64,000 nucleotides of DNA from Cytobacillus oceanisediminis (GTDB lineage Bacteria > Bacillota > Bacilli > Bacillales > Cytobacillaceae), in the NCBI RefSeq assembly GCF_022811925.1, contig NZ_CP065511.1:3093501-3157500 (forward strand), given 5' to 3'. Position numbers and translations under genes: made by a program. Below the pieces are notes generated by a model. That model had not been told where the DNA came from. It ran no database searches and was given only the letters and a program-made list of their open reading frames with translations. Position 1 is the first letter of the stretch, and each line of letters opens with the position of its first letter. Below, one piece after another: positions 22,250-25,093 of the stretch.

Positions 22250-22278
22250 TTGACTTTTTTAATAGATGAATTTATAAT
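22250..22278 (+). promoter_or_regulatory. Sigma-A promoter of the leader-rlmA-ABC-F operon
   Basis: TTGACT (22250-22255), 17-base spacer, TATAAT (22273-22278). Near-consensus vegetative promoter, about 30 bases before the leader peptide start. Confidence 0.8.
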
Positions 22279-22317
22279 GACCAATGTATCTAATTATTTT
22301 AGGAGGATTATTAAAAA

Positions 22318-22362
22318 ATGACACACGCGATGAGACTTCGATTCCCAACTTTGAACCAGTAA
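22318..22362 (+). CDS. ErmDL-like leader peptide (macrolide-arrest type)
   Basis: Fourteen-codon frame MTHAMRLRFPTLNQ behind AGGAGG. From memory the leader of ermD is MTHSMRLRFPTLNQ, so the only difference is residue 4. The MRLR (Arg-x-Arg) segment is the known ribosome-arrest core in ErmDL, where a macrolide-bound ribosome stalls. Here it precedes two terminators and an rRNA methyltransferase plus an ABC-F gene, so it most likely controls them by stalling-dependent attenuation. Sequence and position are seen; the mechanism is inference from the family. Confidence 0.9.
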   Translation: MTHAMRLRFPTLNQ

Positions 22363-22379
22363 TTTAATACGTTCAAAGG

Positions 22380-22497
22380 CTCTGTTTGTGTTAACAGAGT
22401 AAACGGGATTAGTCTGTCCTTTTTTAATAATCTTCAGTTCATATTGAAATAGCTCATTTTGGTGTTATTTCTTAAATTGCCAGTAATTTATGGCAAT
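22380..22497 (+). promoter_or_regulatory. Leader RNA hairpins downstream of the leader peptide
   Basis: Two perfect stems: CTCTGTT/AACAGAG (22380-22399) and ATTGCCA/TGGCAAT (22476-22497). They lie between the leader stop and the first terminator and are candidates for the alternative pairing that decides read-through. No specific antiterminator could be fixed by eye. Confidence 0.5.
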
Positions 22498-22510
22498 ATT
22501 GATATGAATG

Positions 22511-22541
22511 GAAAGGCGGATTTTTCTGCCTTTCTTTTTTT
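22511..22541 (+). terminator. First attenuator terminator
   Basis: GAAAGGC/GCCTTTC stem (22511-22534) followed by T7, about 150 bases after the leader peptide. Confidence 0.85.
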
Positions 22542-22646
22542 ATGTCTATACGCCTTCCCATAGACAAGCAAAAGGAAGGTTTATTTGCTGACGGCTCCTG
22601 ATCAGCCCCTAACCGAATTAGGATGGGTCCTCTTCCCTTTACTCTG

Positions 22647-22676
22647 AATCACAGGCAGATGCCTGTGATTTTTTTA
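22647..22676 (+). terminator. Second attenuator terminator
   Basis: Perfect 10-bp stem AATCACAGGC/GCCTGTGATT with a 4-base loop and T-run. It ends only seven bases before the ribosome binding site of the methyltransferase gene, so the operon cannot be expressed without read-through. Confidence 0.85.
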
Positions 22677-22694
22677 TTGAAAGGAAGAAGAAAA

Positions 22695-23567
22695 ATGGAG
22701 ATTCATGCGAAATATAAAAATTTCAGCAATGCACTTAGATGCCCGAACTGTGAAGATTCACTGCAGGTTGTTCAATCGAAAAGCCTGATTTGCCCGAACA
22801 GGCATACCTTTGATATTTCACACCATGGCTATGTGAACACGCTCAGCCATTCACCGAAGAGCCGGTACAATAAAGCCTTATTTGAAGCCAGGAAGAAAAT
22901 CATTATGGAGAGTGAACTTTTTAAACTGCTTCATGAGAAAATATCAGCCGTAATTGACACCTATTCCGCCGATTCTGACACCCCTGCCTTAATTCTTGAT
23001 ACAGGGTGCGGTGAAGGATCACATCTGGAAAAGATTATGGGCAAATCCAGAAACAGAACGATGACCGGTATTGGCCTGGATTTATCCAAAGCCGGTATTG
23101 CTCAGGCTGCAAAAAGTTATAAACATTCGATTTGGCTTATCGGGGATCTGGCAAAATCTCCTCTAGCTGATCATTCTATGAATATGATATTAAATATCTT
23201 TTCTCCTTCTAATTACAAGGAGTTTAAGAAGATTTTGGTTCCAGATGGGCTCATCATTAAGGTGGTTCCGCGAGCTGCCCATTTGAAAGAGCTGCGGGAT
23301 GCCATTCATGGAAGCAAAGAGAATAGTCTTTACAAGAATGATGAAACCATTTCACTTTTTAAAAAGAATTTTACTCTTACTGACATAATTACTGTGTCGG
23401 ATGCAAGAGAGTTGAATAATAGTGAACGGACACATTTAGTGCAGATGTCTCCACTTGCCTGGGATTCAAGTGAGACATCTTTAGATGCATTTATCACCAA
23501 GAGAAGTCAAATCACAATCGACGCAGATATTTTAATCGGATTAAACCAAAAAGAAACGAGGTTATAA
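22695..23567 (+). CDS. RlmA-type 23S rRNA (guanine-N1) methyltransferase
   Basis: SAM-dependent methyltransferase of the RlmA family (RlmA(I) methylates G745, RlmA(II)/TlrB G748 of 23S rRNA in the macrolide exit tunnel). 290 residues. It has an N-terminal zinc site Cys16, Cys19, Cys33, His37 (RCPNCED and ICPNRHTF), the SAM motif LILDTGCGEGSH near residue 99, and NIFSPSNYKEF in the catalytic region. ATG 22695 follows AAAGGAAG; the longer frame would run through the terminator hairpin. First structural gene of the operon. In Gram-positives RlmA(II) confers tylosin-type tolerance, which fits the leader peptide. Confidence 0.88.
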   Translation: MEIHAKYKNFSNALRCPNCEDSLQVVQSKSLICPNRHTFDISHHGYVNTLSHSPKSRYNKALFEARKKIIMESELFKLLHEKISAVIDTYSADSDTPALILDTGCGEGSHLEKIMGKSRNRTMTGIGLDLSKAGIAQAAKSYKHSIWLIGDLAKSPLADHSMNMILNIFSPSNYKEFKKILVPDGLIIKVVPRAAHLKELRDAIHGSKENSLYKNDETISLFKKNFTLTDIITVSDARELNNSERTHLVQMSPLAWDSSETSLDAFITKRSQITIDADILIGLNQKETRL

Positions 23568-23569
23568 TA

Positions 23570-25036
23570 ATGGAAAATGTACTTTTTGAATTAGAAAATA
23601 TTAAAGTATCCTATTTAGATAGATTAGTATTAAATATTCCCCGGCTGGCCGTGCATCAGTTTGACCGGATTGGCATTGTCGGAAAAAACGGGGCTGGTAA
23701 AAGCACCCTGCTGAAGCTGATGGCTGGACAGTTAAAGTCTGAAAAAGGACGGGTTAAAAGATTTGCTGATTTTGCCTATTTCGATCAGCTGTCAGCACCA
23801 GAAGCGAGCGAAATAGATTATAAACTGGCTGGACAGCTATCAATACCTCAAACCGAAATAGAAAATTTAAGCGGCGGGGAAAGAACCAGGAGGAAATTGG
23901 CGCAAATTTTTTCCAGCTATTATGAAGGCTTATTAATTGATGAGCCAACCACTCACCTTGATGAAGAAGGCACACAATTCTTTATTGAAGAGCTGACCTA
24001 TTATTATGGGGCACTTGTGCTGGTCAGCCATGACCGGTATGTGCTTGACAAGCTGGTCACGAAAATTTGGGAAATTGAAGATGGATCGGTGACAGAATAT
24101 ACGGGTAACTATTCTGATTATACGGAACAAAAAGACCTGCAGCGAAAACAGCAGCTCGAGCAGCATGAAAAATATGTGAAAGAGAAGTCCCGCTTATTAA
24201 AAGCCGCTGAGGAAAAAATGAAAAAGGCCGAGAAAATTACACAGGCAAATGGACATATCTCCAAAAAGGAAACAAAGGCCAAAGCCAATAAAATGTTTAT
24301 GACAAAATCCAAAGATACAAGCCAAAAAGCTGTCCAGCGCGCTGCCAAAGCAATCGAACAGCGGGTACAGAAGCTGGAGAATGTGGATGCGCCAAAGGAA
24401 GAAATGACGATTCGTTTTCATCAGCATCCGGCACTGGAAATGCACAATAAATTTCCCATCATGGGCGATCGGGTAACTTTAAAAGGCGGAGAAAGAACAC
24501 TTCTGAAAGAAGCAAGCTTTCAATTCTCCCTTGGCAATACCATTGCCATTACAGGAAAAAACGGATCAGGAAAAACAACTCTGCTCAATCACATCCTGAA
24601 TCTCGGCGAGGGCATAACCATCTCTCCTAAAGCGGTTATAGGCGCCTATGAACAGATGGATTATCAATTCGATAAAAGCAAAACTGTGCTGGAATATTTG
24701 AAAGAAAAAAGCGATTATGATGATAGTAAAATTCGTTCTGTTCTTCACTCCATGAGTTTTACAGGAAATGACCTTAAAAAGGATGTGCGCAGTTTAAGCG
24801 GCGGAGAAGCTATCCGTCTCGTGCTATGCCAGCTGTTCTTGGGCAGATATAATGTACTGATTTTAGATGAGCCGACGAATTTTTTGGACGTTTTTTGCAT
24901 TGAGGCACTGGAGCGGTTTTTAAAAGTATATGAAGGAACCATCCTACTGGTATCCCATGATAAAGTGTTTGTGGATCGGGTGGCTGATTGCGTGTATGCC
25001 ATAGAAGAACATGTGCTGGTTCTAAAGAAGAGCTAA
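23570..25036 (+). CDS. ABC-F ribosome protection protein (Msr/Vga/Lsa-like)
   Basis: 488-residue soluble protein with two ABC ATPase domains and no membrane part. Domain 1 has Walker A GIVGKNGAGKST, signature LSGGERTRRK and Walker B LLIDEPTTHLDE. Domain 2 has Walker A GKNGSGKTT, signature LSGGEAIRLVL and Walker B LILDEPTNFLD. A long charged helical linker (about 185-290) is the antibiotic-resistance element that in ARE-ABC-F proteins reaches the peptidyl-transferase or exit-tunnel site and displaces drugs. The length equals Msr(A). It starts two bases after the methyltransferase stop, so the two are co-transcribed. The drug class cannot be fixed by eye. Confidence 0.9.
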   Translation: MENVLFELENIKVSYLDRLVLNIPRLAVHQFDRIGIVGKNGAGKSTLLKLMAGQLKSEKGRVKRFADFAYFDQLSAPEASEIDYKLAGQLSIPQTEIENLSGGERTRRKLAQIFSSYYEGLLIDEPTTHLDEEGTQFFIEELTYYYGALVLVSHDRYVLDKLVTKIWEIEDGSVTEYTGNYSDYTEQKDLQRKQQLEQHEKYVKEKSRLLKAAEEKMKKAEKITQANGHISKKETKAKANKMFMTKSKDTSQKAVQRAAKAIEQRVQKLENVDAPKEEMTIRFHQHPALEMHNKFPIMGDRVTLKGGERTLLKEASFQFSLGNTIAITGKNGSGKTTLLNHILNLGEGITISPKAVIGAYEQMDYQFDKSKTVLEYLKEKSDYDDSKIRSVLHSMSFTGNDLKKDVRSLSGGEAIRLVLCQLFLGRYNVLILDEPTNFLDVFCIEALERFLKVYEGTILLVSHDKVFVDRVADCVYAIEEHVLVLKKS

Positions 25037-25042
25037 AAGAAA

Positions 25043-25078
25043 AAATGGACCCGACTACTTTTGCAGGAGGGTCCATTT
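25043..25078 (+). terminator. Terminator of the rlmA-ABC-F operon
   Basis: Stem AAATGGACCC/GGGTCCATTT with a 16-base loop, starting seven bases after the ABC-F stop. Confidence 0.8.
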
Positions 25079-25093
25079 CTTTAATTATGCGGC

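Follow-up and report, generated by a model that had tools for sequence, protein, structure and literature searches.

Analysis of a 64,000-nucleotide (nt) stretch of the Cytobacillus oceanisediminis genome (contig NZ_CP065511.1, forward-strand positions 3,093,501 to 3,157,500; hereafter the window) indicates that positions 22299-22691 very likely form an ErmD/ErmK-type attenuator that responds to macrolides and controls, mainly by transcription attenuation, an operon of two resistance genes, rlmA and msr. The locus contains the parts of such an attenuator, these parts are conserved among relatives, and a covarying RNA element within it is coupled to the rlmA-msr operon and to other resistance genes. 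We infer induction by drug at this locus from the near-identical ErmD peptide, for which drug-dependent stalling is known (PMC8298421; here and below, statements drawn from cited papers apply to the portions of their text that were covered). The features are listed below in window coordinates.

22250-22278, + strand: promoter-like −35/−10 pair, TTGACT-17 nt-TATAAT (11 of 12 matches to the pattern)
22299-22437, + strand: conserved, structured RNA element found by model R1, comprising the leader open reading frame (ORF) and stems P1-P4 (169.6 bits; covariation in divergent matches)
22301-22306, + strand: leader Shine-Dalgarno (SD) sequence AGGAGG, mostly within stem P1 (sequence and consensus fold)
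22318-22362, + strand: 14-codon leader ORF MTHAMRLRFPTLNQ, with ATG at 22318 and TAA at 22360-22362
22411-22436, + strand: segment 2 (AGUCUGUCCUUUUUUAAUAAUCUUCA), the 3′ strand of P1/P2 and predicted antiterminator strand (fold and pairing computations)
22437-22508, + strand: additional hairpin region between the element and terminator 1 (fold and locus comparison)
22510-22542, + strand: intrinsic terminator 1 (T1), stem 22510-22535 and U-tract (terminator scan and locus comparison)
22628-22639, + strand: pyrimidine-rich strand (CUCUUCCCUUUA region), predicted partner of the rlmA ribosome binding site (RBS), enclosing terminator 2 (two fold predictions)
22646-22676, + strand: intrinsic terminator 2 (T2), stem 22646-22671 and U-tract (terminator scan and locus comparison)
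22680-22687, + strand: rlmA RBS AAAGGAAG (sequence; predicted fold pairs 7 of 8 bases)
22695-23567, + strand: rlmA-like 23S rRNA guanine-N1 methyltransferase gene, 290 amino acids, stop codon included in the coordinates (profile and structure matches)
23570-25036, + strand: gene for an Msr-family ABC-F ribosomal protection protein, 488 amino acids (NF000168)

An ErmK-Type Leader Ahead of rlmA and msr

A sequence-only reading of this DNA had described a consensus promoter, an AGGAGG motif, a 14-codon frame and, two bases apart, an rlmA and an ABC-F gene, all of which can be read directly in the sequence, as well as two intrinsic terminators, which are indeed present with a U-tract each and whose parts, together with segment 2, were found by pattern in 66 of 76 loci. 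It had also likened the leader to that of ermD. On comparison, the window leader, an MTHxMRLRFPTLNQ peptide behind a strong SD, is identical to the erm(K) leader given as MTHAMRLRFPTLNQ in Table 3 of PMC4335068, that is, the form with Ala4 (one sentence in the running text of that paper prints Ser4), whereas that of ErmD carries Ser4. The intrinsic terminators, arranged in tandem ahead of the gene, are likewise of the ErmD/ErmK type, two adjacent terminators having been reported for erm(K) (PMC4335068).

When erythromycin or telithromycin stalls translation of the ErmD leader, Leu7 occupies the P site; stalling with telithromycin requires RLR, and for stalling with erythromycin Ser4 can be exchanged only for Ala or Gly, other substitutions at this residue lowering it (PMC8298421). 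By analogy, the stall on the window leader is predicted to place codon 7 (Leu) in the P site while codon 8 (Arg) occupies the A site, and its Ala4 form should behave like the ErmK leader.

Among the closest known systems is the ermK/ermD attenuator of Bacillus licheniformis, which shares the leader peptide, the two adjacent terminators and transcription attenuation with the window (Kwak 1991, through PMC4335068 and PMC5418344) and differs in cargo, erm there and rlmA-msr here. The window leader region is 89.3% identical to part of a B. licheniformis plasmid that precedes a predicted ErmD gene; the match consists of two pieces and spans 8% of the query. This plasmid locus (L003) lacks the additional hairpin region that the window has before T1. 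In L003 and in a locus from B. glycinifermentans (L092), the Erm frame after the leader is broken into two frames that overlap.

Other known systems share some of its traits. B. subtilis yxjB (tlrB) combines an RlmA(II) gene, a +X+ leader peptide, and a terminator with an SD-sequestering hairpin (PMC6851288). Its leader MIIQFIRYR, however, ends in its motif and is induced by tylosin and not by erythromycin, while the window leader runs on with FPTLNQ past RLR and so is not of the short type ending in RYR/RXR; the covered text of PMC6851288 does not mention an ABC-F partner for tlrB, and the window has one. The mef(E)/mel leader MTASMRLR (PMC4335068) and MefAL/MsrDL (PMC10314930) resemble the window in their MRLR arrest peptide, transcription attenuation and Msr-type ABC-F, unlike it carrying Mef and Msr as cargo, and Chancey et al. 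reported seeing no homology to the erm(K) region except for the peptide (PMC4335068). An RLR leader peptide also precedes hflXr, as rli80 (PMC6310831), and hflX, as the uORFC-6-1 motif, a structured covarying RNA found mostly in Bacillales (PMC8632094); the covered text describes both for hflX only, without a tie to the ermK leader RNA or to rlmA-msr. The sequence-only reading had proposed that an arrest peptide known from an Erm gene here drives a different resistance pair. The rlmA-msr cargo agrees with this, but the case is less special than it appeared, as MRLR/RLR leaders before mef, msr(A) and hflXr (PMC4335068, PMC6310831) and an RYR leader before the tylosin-induced RlmA(II) of B. subtilis (PMC6851288) were already published.

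Identity of the Operon Genes

The product of 22695-23567 belongs to the RlmA family, carrying the RlmA zinc ribbon (Zn_ribbon_RlmA, PF21302, 38.1 bits; Pfam cut-off 27) and a SAM methyltransferase domain (PF13649, 30.7 bits; cut-off 27), and it matches the structure of Escherichia coli RlmA (1p91). It scores 146 bits with the RlmA(I) G745-specific equivalog PRK11088, whose curated cut-off is 303, and 89-98 bits with the Erm32/MyrA/ChrB (G748) models, far under their cut-offs. Because Gram-positive RlmA(II) is stated to methylate G748 (PMC6851288), the window enzyme probably has this target. It is the single match to itself as a query in its own genome (5.58 Mb, of which 5.34 Mb is the contig holding the window), and its nearest named matches are Cytobacillus proteins. 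The ABC-F gene, starting two bases 3′ of rlmA, encodes a protein above the NCBIfam Msr model ABCF_Msr_all (NF000168; 758.6 bits, cut-off 680), whose best relative among solved structures is 5zlu_EE, a deposition labelled as a macrolide efflux protein. The operon thus has RlmA-like and Msr genes at the place where an erm operon would have a gene for an A2058 methyltransferase.

Recurrence of the Leader with Resistance Genes

An exact-pattern scan for MRLRFPTLN in 84,980 species genomes returned 74 stretches, namely 73 leaders and one chance match (L017), which has no SD and was excluded from every leader count. For the cargo count, a leader at a contig edge (L007) was left aside; L041 and L055 were dropped because they duplicate L094 and L103. 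In all 72 informative leaders, a gene, or a remnant of one, from five unrelated macrolide-resistance families (Msr, RlmA, Erm, Mef or Mph) begins within 700 nt downstream, short unassigned frames in between being allowed. With the window and three plasmid loci added, 76 informative leaders were classified as Msr first without another family seen (24), RlmA-Msr (19), Erm (17), Mef-Msr (7) or Mef (2); in two, RlmA comes first and the fetched sequence stops before the gene after it, and five arrangements occur once each (Msr-Mef, Erm-Msr, Msr-Mph, Mph, and Msr behind a mef remnant). Where only 1.5 kb was fetched, a later partner gene lies out of view. Weak profile scores had hinted at rlmA remnants in L014 and L020; tblastn found none there, and none is claimed. 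A −10-like box with at most one mismatch lies 5′ of the leader in 71 of the 76 loci, a count made without a chance control. Of 73 loci, 35 have the T1 end at least 140 nt past the leader stop, and 38 have it nearer. In the window's own genome the short MRLR pattern was uninformative, with 122 forward and 110 reverse matches versus 62 and 77 for the reversed control.

When plasmids were searched with the operon, the full arrangement turned up in five Priestia records at ~70% identity. Other plasmids match portions of the operon, including the leader region, and carry mef(F)-msr(G), msr alone, a macrolide phosphotransferase gene, or erm(D). Two plasmid records labelled Stenotrophomonas rhizophila (H11 and H12) match the leader region and hold an msr otherwise seen in Bacillota; they are possibly mislabelled.

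Coupling to rlmA was examined in 193 genomes of the family, where a search with RlmA gave 49 matches in 47 genomes. When coordinate lists were compared by eye, the element was found directly 5′ and on the same strand in 19 of the 21 matches that are at least 49% identical over most of the protein (the exceptions being in genomes G569 and G507), and upstream of none of the 27 less similar matches. The presence of the element before these close relatives, the ErmK leader and the ermK-like pair of terminators (PMC4335068) together support the attenuator proposed in the sequence-only reading.

The 49th match is an rlmA remnant behind the element (L141, genome G447) that retains residues 1-33 and 241-290, with an msr 3′ of it at 94% identity as far as fetched. 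Another locus (L094) has a short rlmA piece before msr, and in L056 and L098 the mef gene bears an internal deletion, the mef remnant of L098 standing between leader and msr. When 43 Msr proteins are placed on a tree, their partner label requires 12 changes, the minimum possible being 5. Taken with the remnants, these changes indicate that sensor and msr can persist while the first gene changes or decays.

Leader Residue 4 Varies with Cargo

Residue 4 of the leader varies with the cargo. Among the 76 leaders, it is Ala (11) or Phe (10) in RlmA operons, Ser (16) or Tyr (2) before Erm, and Ser in all 9 Mef loci, in the single Mph locus and in the mef-remnant locus; Msr-first loci have Ala (14), Ser (8) and four other residues once each. 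Additional RlmA operons in the tree set have Ala, Phe and, in one case (L224), Tyr, and the rlmA-remnant locus L094 has Ser. On the RlmA tree of 33 rows, from which the partial rows L031 (full copy L101 kept), L041, L094 and L141 were dropped and exact copies collapsed, the Phe label requires six changes (gains or losses), at least four of them forced by well-supported branches, and therefore does not reflect one change inherited intact. Since erythromycin stalling accepts only Ala or Gly for Ser4 (PMC8298421), Phe4 leaders should respond poorly to erythromycin, and they may be tuned to other macrolides.

A Structured RNA Element Shared Beyond the Operon

The region of the leader is conserved as an RNA well past the codons fixed by the search pattern. 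An alignment of 64 loci is 86% identical over 139 nt, a value that leans high because four of the six references left out of the 70 (L029, L075, L080 and L089; the other two are L013 and L093) rank among the more divergent. Synonymous positions are fixed as well, with ACT and AAC in 76 of 76 leaders and TTG in 75. The consensus fold has four stems, P1 joining the leader SD/start region to the 3′ strand around UCCUUUUUUAAUAAUC, and the whole leader RNA of the window folds far beyond its shuffles (z −8.09; 0 of 100 shuffles equally good). Model R1, built on this element, has matches in 76 of 398 genomes of the class Bacilli, 90 of 193 genomes of the family and 7 of 299 genomes in a whole-phylum sample; the three samples overlap, and the window's genome is counted in each.

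From the class and family matches, 40 stretches were picked for divergence; they hold 41 R1 matches. Their cargo comprises Mef-like MFS (10), Erm (8), HflX (8), Mph (7), SDR oxidoreductase (3), Msr (2), LmrB-like MFS (2) and RlmA (1), four of the cargo proteins being named from curated families; HflX is also the gene behind the uORFC-6-1 motif. The +X+ motif is kept in 35 of the 41 leaders (34 by script, and L190) and missing in six, three at SDR, two at HflX and one at LmrB-like loci. An alignment of 43 matches, consisting of the 41 and two matches in the window (one of them weak and antisense to the same element), shows two-sided changes in 32 of 40 pairs; 90.9% of its cells pair, versus 79.3% when shuffled and at most 50.5% with the partner slid. 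This alignment was fitted to model R1 and is hence biased towards it.

Several of the divergent copies deserve mention. The window's own genome holds a second, divergent element (G000:C1:813417-813548, locus L164, G000:C1:813250-816600) before a Mef-like MFS pump, with the leader MTASMRLRNPLFNR starting at TTG. The three SDR loci (L173, L174 and L189) carry the R1 scaffold with leader frames that lack the +X+ motif, such as MIDILTLNR (L173) and MIDILALNR (L174), and are candidates for a different sensor and for an undescribed resistance gene. At L183 and L192 the element precedes an LmrB-like efflux gene, one peptide being non-+X+ and the other containing RIR, and L166 (G452:C83:440300-445000) has tandem elements, the first before Mph and the second before Msr.

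A Proposed Switch at the Two Terminators

In the mechanism that we propose, the leader would be translated to its end when no drug is present, and the element would fold, with P1 binding the SD/start region to segment 2 and P2-P4 forming. T1 and T2 would then halt transcription, and in transcripts that escape, the rlmA RBS would pair with the strand just 5′ of T2, keeping translation low too. A macrolide in the exit tunnel would make the ribosome stall at Arg6-Leu7-Arg8, mask the 5′ strands of P2 and P3 and open P1, freeing segment 2 to pair with the 5′ arm of T1; the 3′ arm of T1, once free, may pair with the 5′ arm and loop of T2. RNA polymerase would thereby read through, and the RlmA methyltransferase (probably acting on G748) and the Msr ribosome-protection factor would be made.

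Pairing computations bear on these steps, with the ribosome footprint modelled to ~16 nt past the P site. When the leader is covered and the T1 3′ arm is not yet made, the T1 5′ arm folds with segment 2 (at least 5 base pairs) in 65 of 73 loci. Over the 66 of 76 loci with all segments, close relatives whose counts are not independent, the segment 2-T1 pairing averages −12.4 kcal/mol versus −8.1 kcal/mol with shuffled arms (better in 65 of 66), and the average for the T1 3′ arm paired to the T2 5′ arm is −10.8 kcal/mol versus −5.2 kcal/mol (better in 64 of 66).

A number of observations weigh against this account. Complete T1 wins at equilibrium in 71 of 73 loci even when the sequence under the ribosome footprint is taken out of the fold, and the switch must therefore be kinetic. 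Among the 41 divergent loci, 7 lack T1, and in the other 34 the segment 2-T1 pairing is −8.5 with the own partner versus −8.2 with swapped ones, hardly a gain (the own pairing beats the swapped one in 21 of 34 and the shuffled one in 28); in the 13 with T2 by pattern, the T1-T2 pairing beats swapped partners in 4 and shuffled ones in 6. Ten of the 76 loci lack at least one of segment 2, T1 and T2 by pattern. Covariation is nearly nil within the 64 close leaders (2 of 40 pairs), because the element hardly varies there, and the counts over close relatives generally are not independent. The sequence-only reading had envisaged an antiterminator leading past both terminators; the fold of segment 2 with T1 agrees with this idea, but the T1-T2 step finds no support in the divergent loci. 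As a kinetic model, the segment 2-T1 step is plausible and agrees with how attenuators are modelled in PMC5418344 and PMC6310831; the T1-T2 step is speculative.

Alternative Explanations

One alternative is that the leader works mainly through translation control or mRNA protection, the stall stabilising the transcript and freeing the RBSs, with the terminators playing a minor part. The sequence-only reading had overlooked that the rlmA RBS (22680-22687) is predicted to pair with 22628-22639 in a stem enclosing T2, through 7 of its 8 bases and with a pairing probability of at least 0.89 for those. Across the 62 loci with both a T2 and an RBS identified, window included, pairing of this type averages −9.1 kcal/mol versus −6.6 kcal/mol with shuffled strands and is better in 57, although any purine-rich RBS would partly pair with a pyrimidine-rich strand. 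P1 moreover covers the leader's own SD, leader-dependent mRNA stability is reported for mef(E) (PMC4335068), and B. subtilis tlrB joins a terminator with SD sequestration (PMC6851288). Because of the rlmA RBS pairing, we lowered our confidence in the attenuator very slightly and came to see this alternative as unlikely where before we had thought it quite unlikely; rlmA translation may be controlled too, via the RBS predicted to be sequestered. Conserved-arm terminators between leader and gene in most of the 76 loci nevertheless speak for transcription attenuation as the chief mode.

An alternative that concerns the inducer only, and that can hold together with transcription attenuation, is that the operon responds mainly to 16-membered or cladinose-free macrolides and not to erythromycin, the sensor having been retuned to the substrate class of RlmA. 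In the 21 RlmA operons, residue 4 is never Ser; the repeated changes to or from Phe on the RlmA tree, the reduced erythromycin stalling upon Ser4 changes other than Ala or Gly (PMC8298421), and the reported tylosin specificity of G748 methylation (PMC6851288) point the same way. Against it, the window's own Ala4 is the erythromycin-tolerant form, Ala4 is frequent ahead of msr too (14 of 26 Msr-first loci), and other residues occur with rlmA (Tyr in L224; Ser in L094, with an rlmA remnant only). We consider it unlikely, though a little less so than translation control. Far less credible is the proposal that the leader is a relic of horizontal transfer that has lost its regulation, with the operon driven by another promoter. 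Partner genes have decayed in some lineages, as such a proposal would have it, but the element is near-invariant across genera and cargoes, with synonymous positions fixed, and a pattern scan of 3.5 kb listed no + strand promoter-like site within 22278-24698.

Other Features of the Locus

Bare counts of promoter- and terminator-like sites are no higher than chance, with 8 versus 8.0 and 4 versus 3.2 expected from shuffles, respectively (3.5 kb, both strands). An Rfam scan of the window found no family at its gathering score; scanned permissively, the leader yielded 7 matches, every one under the gathering score of its family and taken as chance, the best being SQ1002 (E 3.3e-05, 32 bits versus a gathering score of 128). 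Between the terminators, a AAAAGGAAGG stretch (window 22566-22582) that recurs in several relatives looks like the rlmA RBS and could vie with it for the RBS-sequestering strand. The T-run in segment 2 (22420-22425) may serve as an RNA polymerase pause site. Lastly, 3′ of the ABC-F gene, an inverted repeat AAATGGACCC ... GGGTCCATTT (window 25038-25085), which lies outside the list of the terminator scan, is perhaps the operon terminator.

Implications for Macrolide Resistance in Bacilli

Three results are new here: an rlmA-msr operon class behind an ErmK-type leader, sequence evidence pointing to one RNA family, and the variation of residue 4 with cargo, Ala or Phe standing in RlmA operons and Ser in most Erm and all Mef loci. 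A literature search, with subscription journals mostly outside its reach, found no paper on RlmA and ABC-F under one leader or joining these cases into one RNA family.

These results tie the ermK, mef, msr, hflX and rlmA-msr cases to one structured leader RNA in Bacilli and suggest that resistance operons in this class are built by exchanging the effector behind a fixed sensor. In a broader proposal, which we hold tentatively and judge to fall a little short of an even chance, the element would be one RNA family, a common macrolide sensor of Bacilli that recombination has placed before at least eight unrelated gene families (Erm, Msr, RlmA, Mef-like MFS, Mph, HflX, LmrB-like MFS and SDR), with the peptide retuned to its cargo, as in the recurring aromatic residue 4 of RlmA operons, and with the scaffold sometimes carrying non-+X+ peptides that may sense other drugs. 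Two testable questions follow, namely whether residue 4 is tuned to the drug class against which the downstream enzyme protects, and whether genes behind the element, such as the SDR family, are new resistance genes. An rRNA methylase and an ABC-F protein under one sensor predict a combined, measurable protection. If the broader proposal is true, the element used as bait would uncover new resistance genes, with the SDR oxidoreductase as first candidate.

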